A stretch of 64,000 nt of DNA from Archangium sp. (GTDB lineage: Bacteria > Myxococcota > Myxococcia > Myxococcales > Myxococcaceae). This document shows positions 27,109 through 35,455 of the stretch, one piece after another; position 1 is the stretch's first letter; each line of letters opens with the position of its first letter. The notes beneath the pieces were generated by a model that had not been told where the DNA came from, did not search any database, and saw nothing but the letters and a program-made list of their open reading frames with translations. Position numbers and translations under genes: made by a program. The stretch covers positions 1 through 64,000 of the forward strand of contig JAUYRZ010000054.1 of NCBI GenBank assembly GCA_030695565.1, written 5' to 3'.

Positions 27109-28932
27109 ATGCACAACCTCCTCATCGTCGTTGCTGCGCTCCTCGCGCAGACCCCGGCCGCCAAACCGGCCACCGCCGAAGACGCGAAGTCGTTCGTGAA
27201 GAAGCTCGATGGTGACCTGCGCAAGCTGTACGTGCGCCAGTCGACCGCCGAGTGGATCAAGTCGACCTACATCACCGACGACACCGAGCGGAACGCCGCC
27301 GCCTTCAACGAAGACCTGATGGCCTACCTGAACACGGCCAACAAAGAAGCCGCGCGCTTCAAGGGCCTCAAGCTCGACGCTGAGACCGAGCGCATGTTGT
27401 ACCTGCTGCGCATCAGCTCGGCGCTGCCCGCGCCTTCGAACGCCGAGAAGCGCACCGAGCTGGCGAGCATCGCGGCCAGGCTCGAGGGGCTCTACGGCAA
27501 GGGCAAGGCCTGCAAGACGGGTAAAGACGGCAAGCAGGTCTGCCGCGATCTGCAGGAGCTCTCCGACGTGATGGGGAAGATCGCCGACAAGAAGAAGCCG
27601 GCCAGCTACGACGAGCTGCTCGAGGCGTGGTCGAGCTGGCACGAGACCTCGAAGGAGATGCGCCCGCTCTACGAGCGCCTGGTCACGCTCTCCAACGAAG
27701 GCGCCAGGGAGTTCGGCTCGGAGGATCTGGGCCAGCTCTGGCGCTCGGCCTACGACATGCCCCCGGCCGACTTCGAGAAGGAGACCGACCGCCTGTGGAC
27801 GCAGGTCAAGCCGCTCTACGACGACCTCCACTGCTACGTGCGCGCGAAGCTCGCGAAGAAGTACGGCGCCGACAAGGTCTCTGCGACCGGCGGCATTCCG
27901 GCGCACCTGCTGGGCAACATGTGGGCGCAGGAGTGGGCCAACATCTACCCGCTGGTCGAGCCGTACCAGGGGCAGAGCAGCCTCGATCTGAAGAAGCAGC
28001 TCGTCGCGCAGAAGTACGACCCCCAGAAGCTGGTCAAGCTGGGCGAGCGCTTCTTCACCTCGATGGGAATGGACCCGCTGCCGGCCACCTTCTGGGAGCG
28101 CAGCCAGTTCGTGAAGCCCCCGGGCCGCGACGTGGTCTGCCACGCCTCGGCGTGGGACGTGACCTTCTCGAACGATCTGCGCATCAAGATGTGCATCAAG
28201 ATCGACGAGGAGGATCTGATCACCGTCCACCACGAGCTCGGTCACAACTACTACTTCCAGAACTACTACACGAAGCCCGTGCTCTTTCAGCAGGGCGCCA
28301 ACGACGGCTTCCACGAAGCGATCGGTGACGCGCTCACGTTGTCGATCACGCCCGAGTACCTGAAGTCGCTCAAGCTCATCGACGCGCTGCCCAAAGACGA
28401 GAAGGGCCTCATCAACGTGCAGATGAAGGACGCGCTCGAGAAGATCGCCTTCTTGCCCTTCGGGCGGATGATCGACCAGTGGCGTTGGGACGTGTTCACC
28501 GGGAAGGTGAAGCCGGCCGACTACAACAAACACTGGTGGGCGCTGCGCCTGAAGTACCAGGGCGTCGCTCCCGCGGGCGGCGCGCGTGGTGAAGACTTCT
28601 TCGACCCGGGCGCGAAGTACCACATCCCCGCGAACGTCCCGTACATGCGCTACTTCCTCGCGCGCATCCTCCAGTTCCAGTTCCACCGCGCCATGTGCCA
28701 GGCCGCCGGCCACAAGGGCCCGCTCCACACCTGCAGCGTGTACGGGAACAAGGAAGCCGGTTCAAAATTGAAAGCCATGCTGGCGATGGGCGCCTCCAAG
28801 CCCTGGCCCGATGCGCTCGAGGCCCTCACCGGTCAGCGCCAGATGGACGCGACCGCGATTCTTGATTACTTCCAGCCACTTCAGGCGTGGCTCAAAGAGC
28901 AGAACAAGGGTCAGCAGTGCGGGTGGCAGTGA
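27109..28932 (+). CDS. M2-family peptidyl-dipeptidase (ACE-like)
   Basis: This 607-aa exported protein is a bacterial homologue of angiotensin-converting enzyme. A signal (LLIVVAALLAQTPAA) is followed by one M2 catalytic domain. The zinc motif is HELGH (375-379, in VHHELGHNYYFQ) and the third ligand is Glu 403 in GFHEAIGD, exactly 24 residues past the second His as in human ACE. Later blocks FLPFGRMIDQWRW and ALRLKYQGVAP are also typical of ACE. It should remove dipeptides from peptide C-termini in the periplasm or outside. It starts 10 bases after the kinase gene. Confidence 0.95.
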   Translation: MHNLLIVVAALLAQTPAAKPATAEDAKSFVKKLDGDLRKLYVRQSTAEWIKSTYITDDTERNAAAFNEDLMAYLNTANKEAARFKGLKLDAETERMLYLLRISSALPAPSNAEKRTELASIAARLEGLYGKGKACKTGKDGKQVCRDLQELSDVMGKIADKKKPASYDELLEAWSSWHETSKEMRPLYERLVTLSNEGAREFGSEDLGQLWRSAYDMPPADFEKETDRLWTQVKPLYDDLHCYVRAKLAKKYGADKVSATGGIPAHLLGNMWAQEWANIYPLVEPYQGQSSLDLKKQLVAQKYDPQKLVKLGERFFTSMGMDPLPATFWERSQFVKPPGRDVVCHASAWDVTFSNDLRIKMCIKIDEEDLITVHHELGHNYYFQNYYTKPVLFQQGANDGFHEAIGDALTLSITPEYLKSLKLIDALPKDEKGLINVQMKDALEKIAFLPFGRMIDQWRWDVFTGKVKPADYNKHWWALRLKYQGVAPAGGARGEDFFDPGAKYHIPANVPYMRYFLARILQFQFHRAMCQAAGHKGPLHTCSVYGNKEAGSKLKAMLAMGASKPWPDALEALTGQRQMDATAILDYFQPLQAWLKEQNKGQQCGWQ

Positions 28933-29400: not shown

Positions 29401-31404
29401 ATGCTCCTCATGACGCTGGTGTTGGCCGCGGCTCCCATGAACACGAAACCAATCGAAGAGGCCCTGACGAAGCAGTTCGGTGAGCCCCAGCGCGCCCGGG
29501 TGGTTCAAGGCGTTCGCCAGGTGGCGGCCCTCTGGCGCAAAGAAGACGGTGACCTCGCCGCGTTCGCCAAAGACAACTTCATCGTCGAACAGAAGGATCT
29601 CGACGCCACCTTCGCGCGCTTCGAAGCGAACTTCGAACAGCTCGATGGTCACCTGCTGGAGATCGGCCGCGAGCTGCAGAAGCCCACCGCGCTCGACGTG
29701 GGCCCGCTGCTGAAGGTCGACCCGCTCTTCGCTGAGTACGATCCTTCGGCGCACCTCACCGAAGACCTCTTCAACAACAAGCTGGGCTTCGTGGTGCTGC
29801 TCAACTTCCCGCTCACCACGCTCGAGCAGCGGCTGGCGGCGAAGGACTGGTCGCGGCAACAGTGGGCCGCGGCGCGATTGGCAGGGCGTTTCTCCCGGCG
29901 TGTCCCCGCGGCGGTGCAGCAGGAGATCACCAGCGCCCAGGCGGCCGCGTCGCTCTACATCGACGAGTACAACGTGTGGATGCACCACGTGCTGGCGGAG
30001 ACGGGCGAGCGGCTCTTCCCCAGGGGCAAGCGCCTGATCAGCCACTGGAACCTGCGCGATGAGCTCAAGGCCCAGTACGCCGACAAAGACGGGCTCGCCC
30101 GCCAGCGCACCATCATCAAGATCATGGAGCGCATCGTCACGCAGACGATCCCCGCTTCGGTGATCGACAACCCGACGGTCGACTGGAATCCGTTCAGCAA
30201 TACGGTGGTGGCAGCGGCTCCCGGGACGGTCGAAGAAGACGCTCCGAAGAAGAAGGCGCAGGCCGCGTCGACCAAGCCCGAGCCTGACGTGCGGTACGCC
30301 AGGCTGCTGGCGAACTACGCGTCGCAGAAGAAGGCAGACCCGTTTTCGCCCATCGCGCCCACGGCGATCGATCGGGCGTTCTCGATCGGCGCCGAGATGC
30401 CTGAGGCGCGGGTGAAGGAGCTGCTCGAGTCGGTGCTGGCCAGCCCGCTGGTTCCGAAGATCGCCGCGGAGATCGAGAAGAAGGTGGGGCGCAAGCTCGA
30501 GCCGACCGACCTCTGGTTCAACGGCTTCCTGCCTCGCGGCTCGATCCCCGAGAAGGAACTCGATGCGAAGTTGGCGGCGAAGTACCCCAACGCGCAGGCG
30601 TTCGCGAAAGACATCCCGCGCATCCTGCAGGGCCTCGGCTTCCCGGCTGATCGCGCGAAGTACCTCTCGGAGCGGATCCTGGTCGATCCTTCACGAGGCG
30701 CAGGCCACGCGCTGCAGGCCGCGCGGCGCGGCGACTTCCCTCATCTGCGCACCCGCGTGGAGAAGGAAGGCATGAACTACAAGGGCTACAACATCGCGGT
30801 CCACGAGCTGGGTCACAACGTGGAGCAGGTGTTCTCGCTCTACGACATCGATCACACCTTGCTGGCCGGCGTGCCGAACACCGCGTTCACCGAGGCGATC
30901 GCCTTCGTCTTCCAGGCGAAGGATCTCGAGCTGCTGGGGTTGGGGAAGCCCGACGCCGAGGCTGAGCGGCTGCGCGTGCTGAACGACTTCTGGATGACCT
31001 GGGAGATCGCCGGTGTGGCGCTGGTGGACATCGAGGTCTGGCACTGGATGTACGATCACCCGAAGGCGACGCCGGCGCAGCTTCGCGCCGCGACGGTCGA
31101 GATCTCGAAGAAGGTCTGGAACAAGTATTACGCGCCGGTGCTGGGCGGGAAAGACACGCCGCTGCTCGGCATCTACTCGCACATGATCAGCTACCCGATG
31201 TACCTCTTCAACTACCCGCTCGGTCACCTGATCGCGTTTCAGATCGAGGAGCAGGTGAAGAAGACCGGGAAGATCGGGCCTGAGATCGAGCGCATGTCGA
31301 AGTTCGGCGCGGTCACTCCGGATGCGTGGATGCTGAACGCGAGCGGTGAGCCAGTTTCTTCAGGGCCGCTGCTCAGAGCCACCGAAGCCGCCCTCAAAAA
31401 GTGA
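29401..31404 (+). CDS. Exported gluzincin metallopeptidase, M3-like
   Basis: This 667-aa exported protein has a short signal (LLMTLVLAAAP). The zinc motif HELGH is at 468-472 in IAVHELGHNVEQVF, with a probable third ligand Glu 498 in NTAFTEAIAF, 26 residues on. This spacing fits gluzincins of the M3/M2/M32 fold. The N-terminal 450 residues are helical, with a Lys/Pro-rich insert near 280-300. The family is not one I can name exactly; M3-like oligopeptidase is the best guess. It lies after the cold-shock gene and may serve peptide nutrition together with the M2 enzyme at 27109. Confidence 0.82.
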   Translation: MLLMTLVLAAAPMNTKPIEEALTKQFGEPQRARVVQGVRQVAALWRKEDGDLAAFAKDNFIVEQKDLDATFARFEANFEQLDGHLLEIGRELQKPTALDVGPLLKVDPLFAEYDPSAHLTEDLFNNKLGFVVLLNFPLTTLEQRLAAKDWSRQQWAAARLAGRFSRRVPAAVQQEITSAQAAASLYIDEYNVWMHHVLAETGERLFPRGKRLISHWNLRDELKAQYADKDGLARQRTIIKIMERIVTQTIPASVIDNPTVDWNPFSNTVVAAAPGTVEEDAPKKKAQAASTKPEPDVRYARLLANYASQKKADPFSPIAPTAIDRAFSIGAEMPEARVKELLESVLASPLVPKIAAEIEKKVGRKLEPTDLWFNGFLPRGSIPEKELDAKLAAKYPNAQAFAKDIPRILQGLGFPADRAKYLSERILVDPSRGAGHALQAARRGDFPHLRTRVEKEGMNYKGYNIAVHELGHNVEQVFSLYDIDHTLLAGVPNTAFTEAIAFVFQAKDLELLGLGKPDAEAERLRVLNDFWMTWEIAGVALVDIEVWHWMYDHPKATPAQLRAATVEISKKVWNKYYAPVLGGKDTPLLGIYSHMISYPMYLFNYPLGHLIAFQIEEQVKKTGKIGPEIERMSKFGAVTPDAWMLNASGEPVSSGPLLRATEAALKK

Positions 31405-31410
31405 AACTGT

Positions 31411-31452
31411 CTCCCTCTCCCTGCGCAGCGGGGAGAGGGTCGGGGTGAGGGG
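31411..31452 (+). repeat. Dispersed palindromic repeat, full copy
   Basis: CTCCCTCTCCC, a loop with inner TGCGCA, then GGGAGAGGGTCGGGGTGAGGGGC. It begins seven bases after the stop of the plus-strand peptidase, in a convergent junction, and is followed by a different but related repeat at 31469. Confidence 0.9.
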
Positions 31453-31516: not shown

Positions 31517-32446
31517 TTACAAACCTTCAATCACCGTGCAGTCACTCGAAGGTCCCGAGCTCATCCCGCCAATCCAGCTCTCGGCGTAGTGCACCACCGC
31601 AAAGCTCTTTCCCCAGCACTCCGTGATGTTCGCGCCGCTGTACAACCCGCGCTTCACCACGCCGATCGCCTTGCCCTCACCGCTGGGCTTCCACGCCGCG
31701 TTGATCTCGAGCTCCTCCACCTCGGGCCCGCTGAGCGCGTAGACGAACCGCATCGCCCCGGCCCCATCGGCCTGCTCGCGAGCGGTGTACCCAATCGACG
31801 AGAAGCCCGACGTGCTGCCCGGCCGCAGGGTGAACACCATCTCGGACCGCTTCGGGAACATGTCCGTCACGTACCCGACCGCGATCTCATCCAACTGCTT
31901 GAACTCATCGCTGACCTTCACGACATCGCGAAAGTCTTTCACGTGAACGGTGAACGCCCCCCGGCCTTTCCTCGCCGTATCGGTGGCGACGAAGTTCCCG
32001 GTGAGGATGCGAATGAACGCCGCACCGACCGCACGCGACTCGATGCGCCACGCGAAGTTCACCTCGTCGACCTGCTCGATCACCACCTGCACTTCACGCC
32101 CGGCATTGTTCGAATCGGAGAACGGGCCCCAGGTGCGCGAGTTCGCAGTTCGCGTGGTGGGCGGCGCCGCACGAACCTGATCGACCACGCCGAGCACCAG
32201 TGACAGCACGTTGTTGTAGTCCGTGGCCGCCCTCCGGGTCGCCGCCCACGCGCCTGACGCATCACCGACCGACAACCCATCACGCCGCGTCGACACGCCT
32301 TCGAGCGGCTGCGAGGTCGAGCTGGCCGGTAACTTCGAGCTCAGGTCATCCCGCCGCGGCAACGCGTTGGCGAACGCGAGATCGGCGTTCGACCAGTTCC
32401 CACCGCAGCCCGCCAGCACCAGCACACAGCAGAGAATCGCTCGCAT
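31517..32446 (-). CDS. Lipoprotein at the end of the caspase operon
   Basis: This 309-aa protein begins MRAILCCVLVLAGCGG, a good lipoprotein signal with lipobox LAGC and Cys 14. The mature domain is beta-rich and Ser/Thr-rich in places, with TVHVKDFRDVVKVSDEF and a C-terminus carrying Cys in ITECWGKSF and SDCTVIEG. No family is recognised. Its start lies three bases after the caspase-gene stop, on the same strand, so the two are almost certainly co-transcribed. Lipidation would place it on the outer or inner membrane facing the periplasm. Confidence 0.85.
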   Translation of the reverse strand: MRAILCCVLVLAGCGGNWSNADLAFANALPRRDDLSSKLPASSTSQPLEGVSTRRDGLSVGDASGAWAATRRAATDYNNVLSLVLGVVDQVRAAPPTTRTANSRTWGPFSDSNNAGREVQVVIEQVDEVNFAWRIESRAVGAAFIRILTGNFVATDTARKGRGAFTVHVKDFRDVVKVSDEFKQLDEIAVGYVTDMFPKRSEMVFTLRPGSTSGFSSIGYTAREQADGAGAMRFVYALSGPEVEELEINAAWKPSGEGKAIGVVKRGLYSGANITECWGKSFAVVHYAESWIGGMSSGPSSDCTVIEGL

Positions 32447-32449
32447 GGG

Positions 32450-34042
32450 TCAGTCCTTGAATTCGTAGTCGAGCAGCGCACCGAAGTCGGCGCTCCCCAG
32501 GCTGCGCGTTTCGTCGACGTTGTAGAGGAGGTAGTGCACCCGAGCGCGCGCGATGACCGAGACGTTCTTGGTGAGGCGAAGCTTGAGACCGCCCACGATG
32601 CCCGGCGTGAAGGTCGAATACGTCTGCTTGGCCAGCGCGCTGTCGGTGAACTCGCGCGACATGATGTTGAAGCTCAGGTGCACGCCCGCGTAGGGAACCC
32701 ACCGGCCGTCCTGGAACCACTCGTAAAAGAGCGAGGCCCCGAAGGTGATGAGCGCGTACTGGTAGCCGAGGTTCCCCAGGAGCGGACCCGACACGCTGCT
32801 GGTGGTCCACCCGTAGCCGCCGTCGACGGACAGCGCGAACCCACGCCCGAAGAAGTTGTGCAGGGTGGCTTCGGCGCTCAGCAGCGGCGCAGAAGGGAAG
32901 TAGCCCCCCGCGTTGGTGGGGCGATCGAAGACCGCCTGGTACTGGCCGGATGCCGAGAGGCTCCAGTGCCGTGAATAGATCGAGGTGACGCCAGTGCCCT
33001 TCACGGGGTCGTCGGAGAACTTCGCGTTCTGAAACGTGGTCTCGTCGATGGTGACGATCTGCCCGCTCACGATGTCGACTTCACCGATGCGGAGCCGATC
33101 GGCGAGGCGGCGTTTGATCGTGTAGTGCCCCGGTGCGAGCGCGATCAGCCGTTCGGTTTCGGTCTTCACGGCCTCGGCCACCACGACGCCGCGGGGATCG
33201 ATGATGAAGTACGGCCCAATCGGAGCGCTCACTGGAATGCGAAGACCTTCATTCCGCTCGGCCACGTCGGTGAGCACGAGATCTCCGTTACCCGCGAGAT
33301 CGAAGCTGAACGTCGGGTGCTGCGGCCCCGCTGCGCTGTCGGCCGTGCTCGCCACCGTGCGTTCGTAGGCCCACGCGTAGGCCTCGGAGAGCGTCACCCG
33401 GCCGTCGCCCCCGGTGTCAGCGCTGCCCAGCAGGCCAGTGGCGAGGTGGTACGAGAAGTAGCTGGCGCCGATGAGATCTGACTCCTGCGAGTCTTCGTCG
33501 GAGGCCGAGGAGGTGAGGATCACCAGGCCCTTCGCCTGCCGGGTCGCGTCGGTCTCCACTTCGAAGGCGGGCGCCCGGCGAACTCCTTTGGTGCGAGTGA
33601 CGGCACCAGAGCGGCAGGCGTCGAGGAAGGCGACTCGCATGTCCGCGGGGCCGGCAGCGAGCCTCGACTTGATCGACTCGAGCGGGAGTTTGGTGGTGCC
33701 CAGCCGCAAGGAGCCGTCTTTCGCGTGGCCTGAATAATAGAAGAGCAGGGTGGTGCGTTCGCCGCGGGCCTTCGCGTCGCGGATGCGTCGCTCGAGCTCG
33801 GTGAGCGCCGTCGTCACGTCGTCGGCCGTCTCGTCGAGGATCAGCATGGCGTCTTCGGGCTTCACGCCACCGAGGCGCAGGAAGACGTCGTGAAGACGGC
33901 GGGCGTCGTCACGGGCGTAGAGAAGGGGTTTGGTTCCTTCGCCTCCTTCGTTTTGACCCACGAAGAGTGCGAAGCGGTGCAGGGGGCCCGTTTGTTGTGC
34001 GGCGGCTGGCAAGGAGAGCAGGCACAGCGCCAACGCCCTCAC
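32450..34042 (-). CDS. Caspase-fold protease with barrel-like C-terminus
   Basis: This 530-aa exported protein has a caspase/metacaspase (C14) domain at about 20-250. The catalytic pair is His 106 in LFYYSGHAKD and Cys 143 in VAFLDACRSG. Middle residues 250-330 look like a beta sandwich (GHYTIKRRL). Residues 330-530 alternate aromatic and polar residues, as in an outer-membrane barrel, and end in LDYEFKD. The GTG start at 34042 gives the signal MRALALCLLSLPAAA and lies in a dispersed repeat that also supplies an AAAGGG ribosome site. A longer frame reaches 34180 but would overlap the anti-sigma gene. It is co-transcribed with the lipoprotein. Confidence 0.88.
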   Translation of the reverse strand: MRALALCLLSLPAAAQQTGPLHRFALFVGQNEGGEGTKPLLYARDDARRLHDVFLRLGGVKPEDAMLILDETADDVTTALTELERRIRDAKARGERTTLLFYYSGHAKDGSLRLGTTKLPLESIKSRLAAGPADMRVAFLDACRSGAVTRTKGVRRAPAFEVETDATRQAKGLVILTSSASDEDSQESDLIGASYFSYHLATGLLGSADTGGDGRVTLSEAYAWAYERTVASTADSAAGPQHPTFSFDLAGNGDLVLTDVAERNEGLRIPVSAPIGPYFIIDPRGVVVAEAVKTETERLIALAPGHYTIKRRLADRLRIGEVDIVSGQIVTIDETTFQNAKFSDDPVKGTGVTSIYSRHWSLSASGQYQAVFDRPTNAGGYFPSAPLLSAEATLHNFFGRGFALSVDGGYGWTTSSVSGPLLGNLGYQYALITFGASLFYEWFQDGRWVPYAGVHLSFNIMSREFTDSALAKQTYSTFTPGIVGGLKLRLTKNVSVIARARVHYLLYNVDETRSLGSADFGALLDYEFKD

Positions 34043-34070
34043 CCCGACCCTTTCCCAGCGGGAGAGGGAG
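34035..34070 (-). repeat. Dispersed repeat serving as initiation region
   Basis: The sequence is GCCCTCACCCCGA, then CCCTTTCCC, a short loop and GGGAGAGGG. It differs from the others by one base in the palindrome (CCCTTTCCC), which on the coding strand creates the GGGAAAGGG used as a ribosome site; the GTG of its GGGGTGAGGGC flank is the likely caspase-gene start. Confidence 0.85.
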
Positions 34071-34092
34071 ATATTTGATTTTGGATGGGCGC

Positions 34093-34812
34093 TCACGGTT
34101 TCAGGAACGTGCGGTGTACCTGAACTCCGTTCACTTCGAGGGCACCGAGTTTGTTCAGATCGCCGCCGGCCGCCTTCCACGCCCCCTGGAGCTTCACCGA
34201 GAGGGCTTCGGTCTCCAGCGGAGCATCGGAGAGCAGCACCACCACGTGCTCACGACCTGCGCCGGTGAACTCGATCGACTCAGGCAACCAGGTCTGCGCC
34301 TCTCCTTGCAGCGTCTCCGAATAGACCATCGACACCTCCCCCGCGTCGTCGATGCTCAACGCCAGCACGTGCCGGTGACCGCTCACCCCGATGCGCACGC
34401 GCTCACCCGTCGCGAGTTGCTCGAGCTCAGCCGCCGGGCGTTGACCACCCGGTCCCGCGACCACGAAGTCCACCTTTGCGCCGCCCTTGATTCGATGGCC
34501 GCCGTCGTCCTGGAAGACCTGCTTGCCGGCGAAGAACGCCACCAGACAGGCCGCGATCGCGACGAACACGCCCACCAGCGAACGCGCCTTCGGTGCCTTC
34601 TGCTGCCGGGCCGCCCGCTCCACGCCCGGGGCGAAACGATCGAACGGCACCTCGGCCTCGAAGGCCCGCTGCTCCTCCCTGAACTTCGACAACCGCGTCG
34701 CGCACTCGGCGCAGCTGCCCAGGTGTTCGGTGGTGGCGGCGTCGAGCGGCTCGTGCGCGAGGAAGCGGCGCAGCTTCAGCTCTCCCACGTGTTTGATCGC
34801 CAGGGTCATCAT
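34093..34812 (-). CDS. Membrane anti-sigma factor
   Basis: This 239-aa protein carries a zinc anti-sigma motif Hx3Cx2C (His 30, Cys 34, Cys 37, in EHLGSCAECATR), the sequence class that clamps ECF sigma factors. A single membrane span lies at about 79-96 (SLVGVFVAIAACLVAFFAG). The remaining 140 residues are periplasmic and beta-rich, and have no assigned domain; they probably sense the signal. Its ATG overlaps the sigma-factor stop in an ATGA, so the pair is translated together. This protein would hold the sigma factor inactive until its periplasmic part detects stress. Confidence 0.92.
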   Translation of the reverse strand: MMTLAIKHVGELKLRRFLAHEPLDAATTEHLGSCAECATRLSKFREEQRAFEAEVPFDRFAPGVERAARQQKAPKARSLVGVFVAIAACLVAFFAGKQVFQDDGGHRIKGGAKVDFVVAGPGGQRPAAELEQLATGERVRIGVSGHRHVLALSIDDAGEVSMVYSETLQGEAQTWLPESIEFTGAGREHVVVLLSDAPLETEALSVKLQGAWKAAGGDLNKLGALEVNGVQVHRTFLKP

Positions 34813-35342
34813 GAAAGCTCTCCAGCCAGGGTCTGCCCGGTGGCGTCCGCGAAGGCGCGCAGCCGTTTTCGAATGGTCGGCACCGAACGCTCCAGTGTCG
34901 CCGCCACTTCTTCCAACGTCAGATCATCGACCCAGTAGTGAATGACGGCCTGCTGCGTCTCGAGGTCGAACTTGTTCAGGCTCCTCCGCACCAGATCACG
35001 CGCCTCGAGCTCGGCCGCGCCCCCGTGGGCTTCACCACGCACCACCTGCATCGCGGCGTATTCGTCGTGCCACCCCGCGCCCTTGCTGCGGATCACGTTC
35101 AGACAATGGTGCGTGGCGATCTTCATCAACCAGGTGAGGGGTGAAGCCTCTGCCCGAAAGCTGTTCTCGTTCACCAGCGCCCGGGCGAAGACGTCTTGCA
35201 GGGCGTCTTCCGCGGCGCTTTGATCCTTCAGCAGGTAGCGGCAGCGGCCGTACACCGCGCTGCCGTACTTCACGTACAACGAGTGCAACCAGGCCCGGCC
35301 CGTCGTCTTGCCTCCGTCGATGACCTGAAGCGCGGGCCGCAT
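34809..35342 (-). CDS. ECF-family RNA polymerase sigma factor
   Basis: This 177-aa protein is a group 4 sigma factor. Region 2 includes YLLKDQSAAEDALQDVFARAL and PLTWLMKIATHHCLNVIRS; region 4 includes DLTLEEVAATLERSVPTI, a helix-turn-helix for the -35 element. Its stop overlaps the anti-sigma start. It leads a four-gene minus-strand unit with the anti-sigma factor, the caspase-fold protein and the lipoprotein. No ribosome site precedes the ATG, so the transcript may be leaderless. I could not identify a convincing self-regulated promoter in the 113-base gap to the divergent M48 gene. Confidence 0.95.
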   Translation of the reverse strand: MRPALQVIDGGKTTGRAWLHSLYVKYGSAVYGRCRYLLKDQSAAEDALQDVFARALVNENSFRAEASPLTWLMKIATHHCLNVIRSKGAGWHDEYAAMQVVRGEAHGGAAELEARDLVRRSLNKFDLETQQAVIHYWVDDLTLEEVAATLERSVPTIRKRLRAFADATGQTLAGELS

Positions 35343-35455
35343 GAGTCGTGTTTTACAACGGGATGCTCCTGTCGAACGGCGGGTTCACCGAAATGGACAC
35401 CGCGGGCGTGGAAAACAGAAAGCACCCCCATGGCCGGTCTTGTTATGGGTGGTTG

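Follow-up and report, generated by a model that had tools for sequence, protein, structure and literature searches.

A barrel-bearing caspase as the proposed protease of its own anti-sigma factor in Archangium sp.

What is a caspase-fold protease doing in an operon with a sigma factor and its putative inhibitor? The question is raised by four minus-strand genes, overlapping or nearly touching, at positions 31517–35342 of the window, by which we mean the whole stretch of 64,000 nucleotides analysed here (Archangium sp., assembly GCA_030695565.1, contig JAUYRZ010000054.1, positions 1 to 64,000), part of an 8.5 Mb genome. In order of transcription they encode an extracytoplasmic function (ECF) sigma factor, a membrane zinc anti-sigma factor, an exported caspase and a lipoprotein. 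We argue that the caspase is probably the site-1 protease of its own anti-sigma factor, and that the operon would thereby form a self-contained transmembrane signalling module.

Results

The observation on which this proposal turns is a dipeptide, a basic residue followed by glycine, that recurs at three sites in two of the four proteins. One lies in the anti-sigma factor just beside the membrane (R107-I-K109-G110, 34483–34494; this and all other operon features are on the minus strand) and is the proposed cleavage site of that protein. The other two lie in the caspase itself: K167-G168 (33584–33589), nine residues after the catalytic cysteine (Cys+9) in the activation loop, is a candidate self-cleavage site, and K363-G364 (32996–33001), in a DDPVKG linker ahead of the C-terminal barrel, a candidate release site. 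Across 44 aligned anti-sigma factors K109 never varies, and R107 and G110 are each kept in 43, a conservation above that of the zinc ligands (42/44), while the surrounding stretch is variable. Lys-Gly occurs within 45 residues after the transmembrane segment in 117 of 122 anti-sigma factors, where shuffled periplasmic parts would give 15.9; two of the five that lack it (L136 and L140) belong to second sigma pairs that are not partnered with the caspase. Nineteen class-1 anti-sigma factors that had been counted with Arg-Gly turned out on inspection to be, nearly all, cases of an earlier chance Arg-Gly with Lys-Gly further on.

The caspase sites are no less regular. Lys-Gly stands at Cys+9 in 162 of 163 class-1 caspases (class 2, described below, comprises the relatives of a divergent seventh caspase of this genome), and a linker Lys-Gly lies between Cys+195 and Cys+211 in 120 of 129 short-tail forms (4.9 expected), with the residue aligned to K363 being lysine in 55 of 56 homologues and arginine in one. 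Long-tail forms have Arg-Gly in the linker in nearly all of about 24 cases; their anti-sigma factors, in those read, are without the zinc finger yet keep R-x-K-G. These long-form caspases (L137, L140, L147 and others) also carry extended glycine-rich repeats before the C-terminal region. Neither motif appeared in the controls: none of 19 membrane zinc-finger proteins encoded beside a sigma factor, with no caspase in view, has the Lys-Gly, and none of 31 caspases outside classes 1 and 2, a set that took in three of the five distant caspases from a plasmid search, has Lys-Gly or Arg-Gly at Cys+9.

Could the caspase cut such a motif? The protein (548 residues from a GTG start; 32450–34096) consists of a signal peptide, a caspase domain, a small beta domain, the linker and an eight-stranded barrel, and matches Peptidase_C14 (PF00656) above the cutoff at 7.4e-10. 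The earlier note had named a catalytic His106 and Cys143; they are His121 (codon 33725–33727) and Cys158 (33614–33616) in the P0001 numbering used here, which begins at 34087, and the pair is invariant in 56 of 56 aligned homologues, as are both acidic S1-pocket positions, D61 and D156. The latter, two residues before Cys158, is a predicted S1-pocket residue equivalent to Asp211 of TbMCA2. In metacaspases, the S1 pocket accommodates basic residues through two aspartates, Asp95 and Asp211 of TbMCA2 (PMC6426788, PMC4357240), and orthocaspases cut after basic residues (PMC6426788). The predicted S1 pocket of the window caspase therefore fits the basic-Gly motif, and the enzyme would be expected to cleave after lysine or arginine. 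Three proteins that might have passed for naturally dead caspases (L157, L192 and L211) all keep the catalytic cysteine and the Cys+9 Lys-Gly, and the catalytic dyad was never lost in the sequences read. As for a defence system, the caspase gave only a weak PADLOC match (E 0.0041) and the other three proteins none.

The AlphaFold model of the caspase (mean predicted local distance difference test score, pLDDT, 85) resolves into the caspase domain, the small beta domain and eight barrel strands. Its protease domain resembles caspase-7 (Z 19.3, root-mean-square deviation 2.8 over 197 residues) and plant metacaspase-4 (Z 19.2), and the loop after the catalytic cysteine (model residues 151–171, pLDDT below 50) is predicted to be disordered. 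The barrel-like C-terminus that had been noticed from the letters alone is borne out by the model as eight long strands at residues 360–529, with block pLDDT mostly 82–98, and by Foldseek, whose best barrel matches were OmpA, NspA and Ail (5e-10 to 5e-8), with OmpX also matched. Both ends of an eight-stranded barrel normally face the periplasm, where the protease domain would then lie; export of the caspase and its predicted outer-membrane anchoring are supported. A 36-base repeat with 83% complementary arms lies in the signal-peptide region of the gene (34036–34071) and has a second copy a short way past the end of the operon (31416–31451); it resembles a dispersed repeat absorbed into the caspase N-terminus.

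The genome holds six Pfam-recognised caspases and the seventh, more divergent one. Of the six, four (the window caspase, L007, L010 and L011) have a sigma and an anti-sigma factor beside them, L009 has only a divergent sigma factor, and L008 has neither. Across 85 class-1 paralogous loci, from relatives and this genome, a sigma gene is nearby in about 74. Class 2 (41 loci) has caspases at most 32% identical to class 1 among the matches listed, and here arginine takes the place of lysine: Cys+9 is Arg-Gly in 39 of 41, the linker is mostly Arg-Gly, and the anti-sigma factor has arginine followed by glycine or, less often, by alanine, serine or threonine. The class was founded on L237 (G000:C41), a divergent caspase whose sigma/anti-sigma pair is divergently transcribed, with Arg-Gly at all three sites. 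Within class 2, L305 has Lys-Gly at all three sites, and L280 has it in the linker and the anti-sigma factor with Arg-Gly at Cys+9. The association between linker and anti-sigma residue in this class gives a Fisher p of 0.03, which is only a guide because related sequences are not independent. An anti-sigma-like protein elsewhere in the genome, L238 (G000:C64:61395-62027), carries RVKGG after its transmembrane segment, and neither a sigma factor nor a caspase was recognised in its vicinity; the caspase L008 or L009 is a possible partner in trans.

The remainder of the operon conforms to a transmembrane sigma system. The sigma factor (177 residues; 34809–35342) matches Sigma70_r2 (1.1e-13) and, above cutoff, TIGR02937 (sigma70-ECF); region-4 matches are weaker and fall below the Pfam cutoff for the window protein, and regions 2 and 4, with no others, are the make-up of an ECF sigma factor. 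Its gene overlaps that of the anti-sigma factor (239 residues; 34093–34812) by the four bases ATGA. The latter protein has the zinc finger of a class I zinc anti-sigma factor (H30-x3-C34-x2-C37, of the HxxxCxxC type), one transmembrane segment and a periplasmic DUF4384-like domain. While the window protein itself has no Pfam match, 24 of its 44 orthologues and paralogues match zf-HC2 and 23 match DUF4384; that it binds and inhibits its sigma factor is putative, and suggested by the pairing of the genes. The caspase GTG start in turn overlaps the anti-sigma stop (GTGA), and the lipoprotein gene (309 residues; 31517–32446) follows the caspase gene after three bases. The layout described in the earlier note, including the ATGA overlap and the closely spaced lipoprotein, was thus right in its coordinates and agrees with the profile and motif matches; the linkage of caspase and sigma pair it presumed also holds, since the order sigma, anti-sigma, caspase, lipoprotein is kept in nearly all of roughly 109 loci where the contig is long enough, and is not due to chance. 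A neighbouring, divergent M48 protease, which had been taken to add an envelope-quality theme, fared differently: an M48 gene lies near the operon in none of 79 relatives, and we therefore regard it as a local accident. Downstream of the operon, two large plus-strand genes (27109–28932 and 29401–31404) encode apparently exported metallopeptidases with HExxH-like motifs (HHELGHN and VHELGHN).

Upstream of the sigma gene lies a conserved promoter-like element, TTTCTGTTT-N12-GTGTCCAT (35393–35421), which most of 54 relatives also have ahead of the gene that opens their operon. It has one exact match in the 8.5 Mb genome, at this operon, plus two weak sites; with up to three mismatches allowed, 0.04 matches would be expected in the window. 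The element may well be the sigma factor's own promoter. Since the pattern gave so few sites across the genome, no wider sigma regulon was found with it. A weaker copy with two mismatches, L343 (G000:C93:34409-34437), stands directly ahead of a predicted lipoprotein gene, which may be another target of the sigma factor.

Most relatives carry a fifth operon gene upstream of sigma, a paralogue of the first lipoprotein. This gene has been lost in the window, where its promoter and leader persist and now adjoin the sigma gene (35342–35421), and no other copy was found in this genome. The two flanking lipoproteins (31517–32446 in the window; L042-L108) belong to one family, which no Pfam entry matches convincingly and for which the model, a single-layer sheet, is confident. 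The window protein has a lipobox ending at Cys14, which is invariant in A2 and A5, and found no match in Pfam, NCBIfam or PADLOC. Its model (pLDDT 91.5) is such a sheet and had no Foldseek match below 0.001; the best hit by Z score, OspA at 8.7, is ambiguous, and we set an OspA-like identity aside, as a value in that range possibly means only a common arrangement.

Discussion

What is the physiological role of this caspase? That a conserved basic-Gly motif is common to caspase and anti-sigma factor argues that the caspase acts upstream of the sigma factor, by relieving the anti-sigma factor. From this we infer the following chain of events. The membrane anti-sigma factor would hold the sigma factor, while the caspase would be anchored in the outer membrane by its C-terminal barrel, with the protease domain toward the periplasm. 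An envelope signal would activate the caspase, which would cut itself twice, after K167 in the activation loop and after K363 in the linker, the linker cut detaching the protease from the barrel. Its further target would be the anti-sigma factor, cut after K109, close to the outer face of the inner membrane. With the DUF4384-like periplasmic domain lost, a site-2 protease would finish the anti-sigma factor and release the sigma factor, which would transcribe the operon from its own promoter. In alphaproteobacteria, one clade of caspase-homologue proteins is reported to contain DUF4384 (PMC6426788), in keeping with a working link between anti-sigma factor and caspase.

The same motif bears on the alternatives. 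Rather than controlling the sigma factor, the caspase might be a downstream effector that is induced by it and degrades envelope proteins or lyses cells, with its own basic-Gly sites serving self-activation and an unrelated protease cutting the anti-sigma factor. The caspase gene does sit in the sigma operon, behind the shared promoter-like element, and the literature often ties bacterial caspases to cell death (PMC3501461). Such an effector, however, leaves unexplained both the motif in caspase-adjacent anti-sigma factors (117/122, versus 0/19 in those without a caspase in view) and why the anti-sigma residue, lysine or arginine, tracks the caspase class; we regard it as unlikely. The purposes suggested in the earlier note, outer-membrane proteolysis or lysis during development or predation, likewise gained no support, the motif pointing instead to a caspase upstream of sigma. 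It is less likely again that a separate, trypsin-like periplasmic protease cuts all three sites and so activates caspase and anti-sigma factor together. A Lys-Gly or Arg-Gly site would suit any basic-specific protease, and both proteins that bear the sites are predicted to occupy the same compartment, the periplasm, but such an enzyme would need to track the lysine or arginine class of each caspase, the unlinked anti-sigma factors are without the site, and the caspase's own predicted S1 pocket already fits the motif. The least probable of the three, in our judgement, is that basic-Gly is a docking or structural element through which the juxtamembrane peptide of the anti-sigma factor binds and inhibits the caspase active site, giving mutual regulation without cleavage. 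Invariance can indeed stem from binding instead of cutting, and the caspase sites could be pseudo-substrates; yet the first of these sites falls in the predicted-disordered loop after the cysteine, where caspases are commonly processed, and the dyad is kept in every sequence read.

Several observations nevertheless weigh against a caspase that acts as site-1 protease. Of the caspases in this genome, L008 is without a sigma factor beside it and L009 has a divergent sigma factor and no visible anti-sigma factor; conversely, R-x-K-G is present in an orphan anti-sigma factor (L124/L238) whose surroundings hold no caspase. Two linked anti-sigma factors have Lys-Ser in place of Lys-Gly (L055, L192), some class-2 sites read Arg-Ala, Arg-Ser or Arg-Thr, and L285 is inconsistent or misassigned. 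The class-level co-variation of lysine and arginine is partly phylogenetic, with few independent switches within a class (L305, L280). The control set of unlinked anti-sigma factors is small (n=19) and mostly of other periplasmic-domain types. Finally, one motif in every paralogous system would permit cross-talk.

How does this system compare with what is known? Metacaspase genes in sigma-70 operons were described for Myxococcus (M. xanthus), Anaeromyxobacter, Haliangium and Sorangium in 2012 (Asplund-Samuelsson et al. 2012, PMC3501461), a paper that also names Ralstonia and Fibrobacter, outside Myxococcota, and the window operon is of that kind; the linkage of sigma factor and caspase is therefore not new. 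The arrangement had been called distinct in the earlier note, which it is to a lesser degree than supposed there. The text of the 2012 paper is without anti-sigma factors; the barrel, the shared basic-Gly motif and the proposed mechanism are what we add. In the open-licence literature we found no role assigned since then to the sigma-linked Myxococcus caspases and no prior report of a caspase/anti-sigma mechanism, which does not by itself prove novelty.

The one published precedent we found for control of a sigma factor by a caspase-fold protease, offered here as an analogy, is Csx29, a CHAT protease whose cut in the inhibitor Csx30 activates an ECF sigma factor (PMC10028731). As in the Csx29-Csx30-CASP-sigma system of type III-E CRISPR, a caspase-fold enzyme would relieve an ECF sigma factor through a cut in its inhibitor, a cut that is proposed here; but Csx29 belongs to the CHAT branch, is activated by RNA and is bound to CRISPR, and Csx30, unlike the window protein, is not a membrane zinc anti-sigma factor. 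With E. coli sigma-E/RseA/DegS and other cases of regulated intramembrane proteolysis, the operon shares a membrane anti-sigma factor and a proposed periplasmic site-1 cut beside the transmembrane segment, except that the part of site-1 protease would fall not to an inner-membrane serine protease but to a caspase that is tethered to the outer membrane and encoded in the operon itself. Orthocaspases and C14B metacaspases (PMC6426788) have the p20 caspase fold, the His/Cys dyad and an acidic S1 pocket for a basic P1 residue in common with the window caspase, whereas it differs in its export, its C-terminal barrel and the conserved Cys+9 basic-Gly, which the other caspases sampled lack. The predicted barrel, for its part, is like the OmpA-type barrels (OmpA, NspA, Ail, OmpX), to which it adds an N-terminal protease domain joined by a conserved Lys/Arg-Gly linker.

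Beyond this locus, we lean, with less assurance than for the window operon itself, toward a general picture for Myxococcota, in which each cell would run several parallel channels. In every channel a caspase tethered to the outer membrane would sense the envelope, detach by a cut in its basic-Gly linker and release its own sigma factor by cutting the motif in the cognate anti-sigma factor, in the service of cell-surface signalling and not of cell death. Discussion of bacterial caspases has mostly centred on cell death, and few of their substrates are known. Here the product of an adjacent gene carries a conserved candidate cut site, which provides a named substrate and a named residue. If true, a protease fold of the apoptosis type would here be working as a switch of gene expression, and several such channels would be present per genome.

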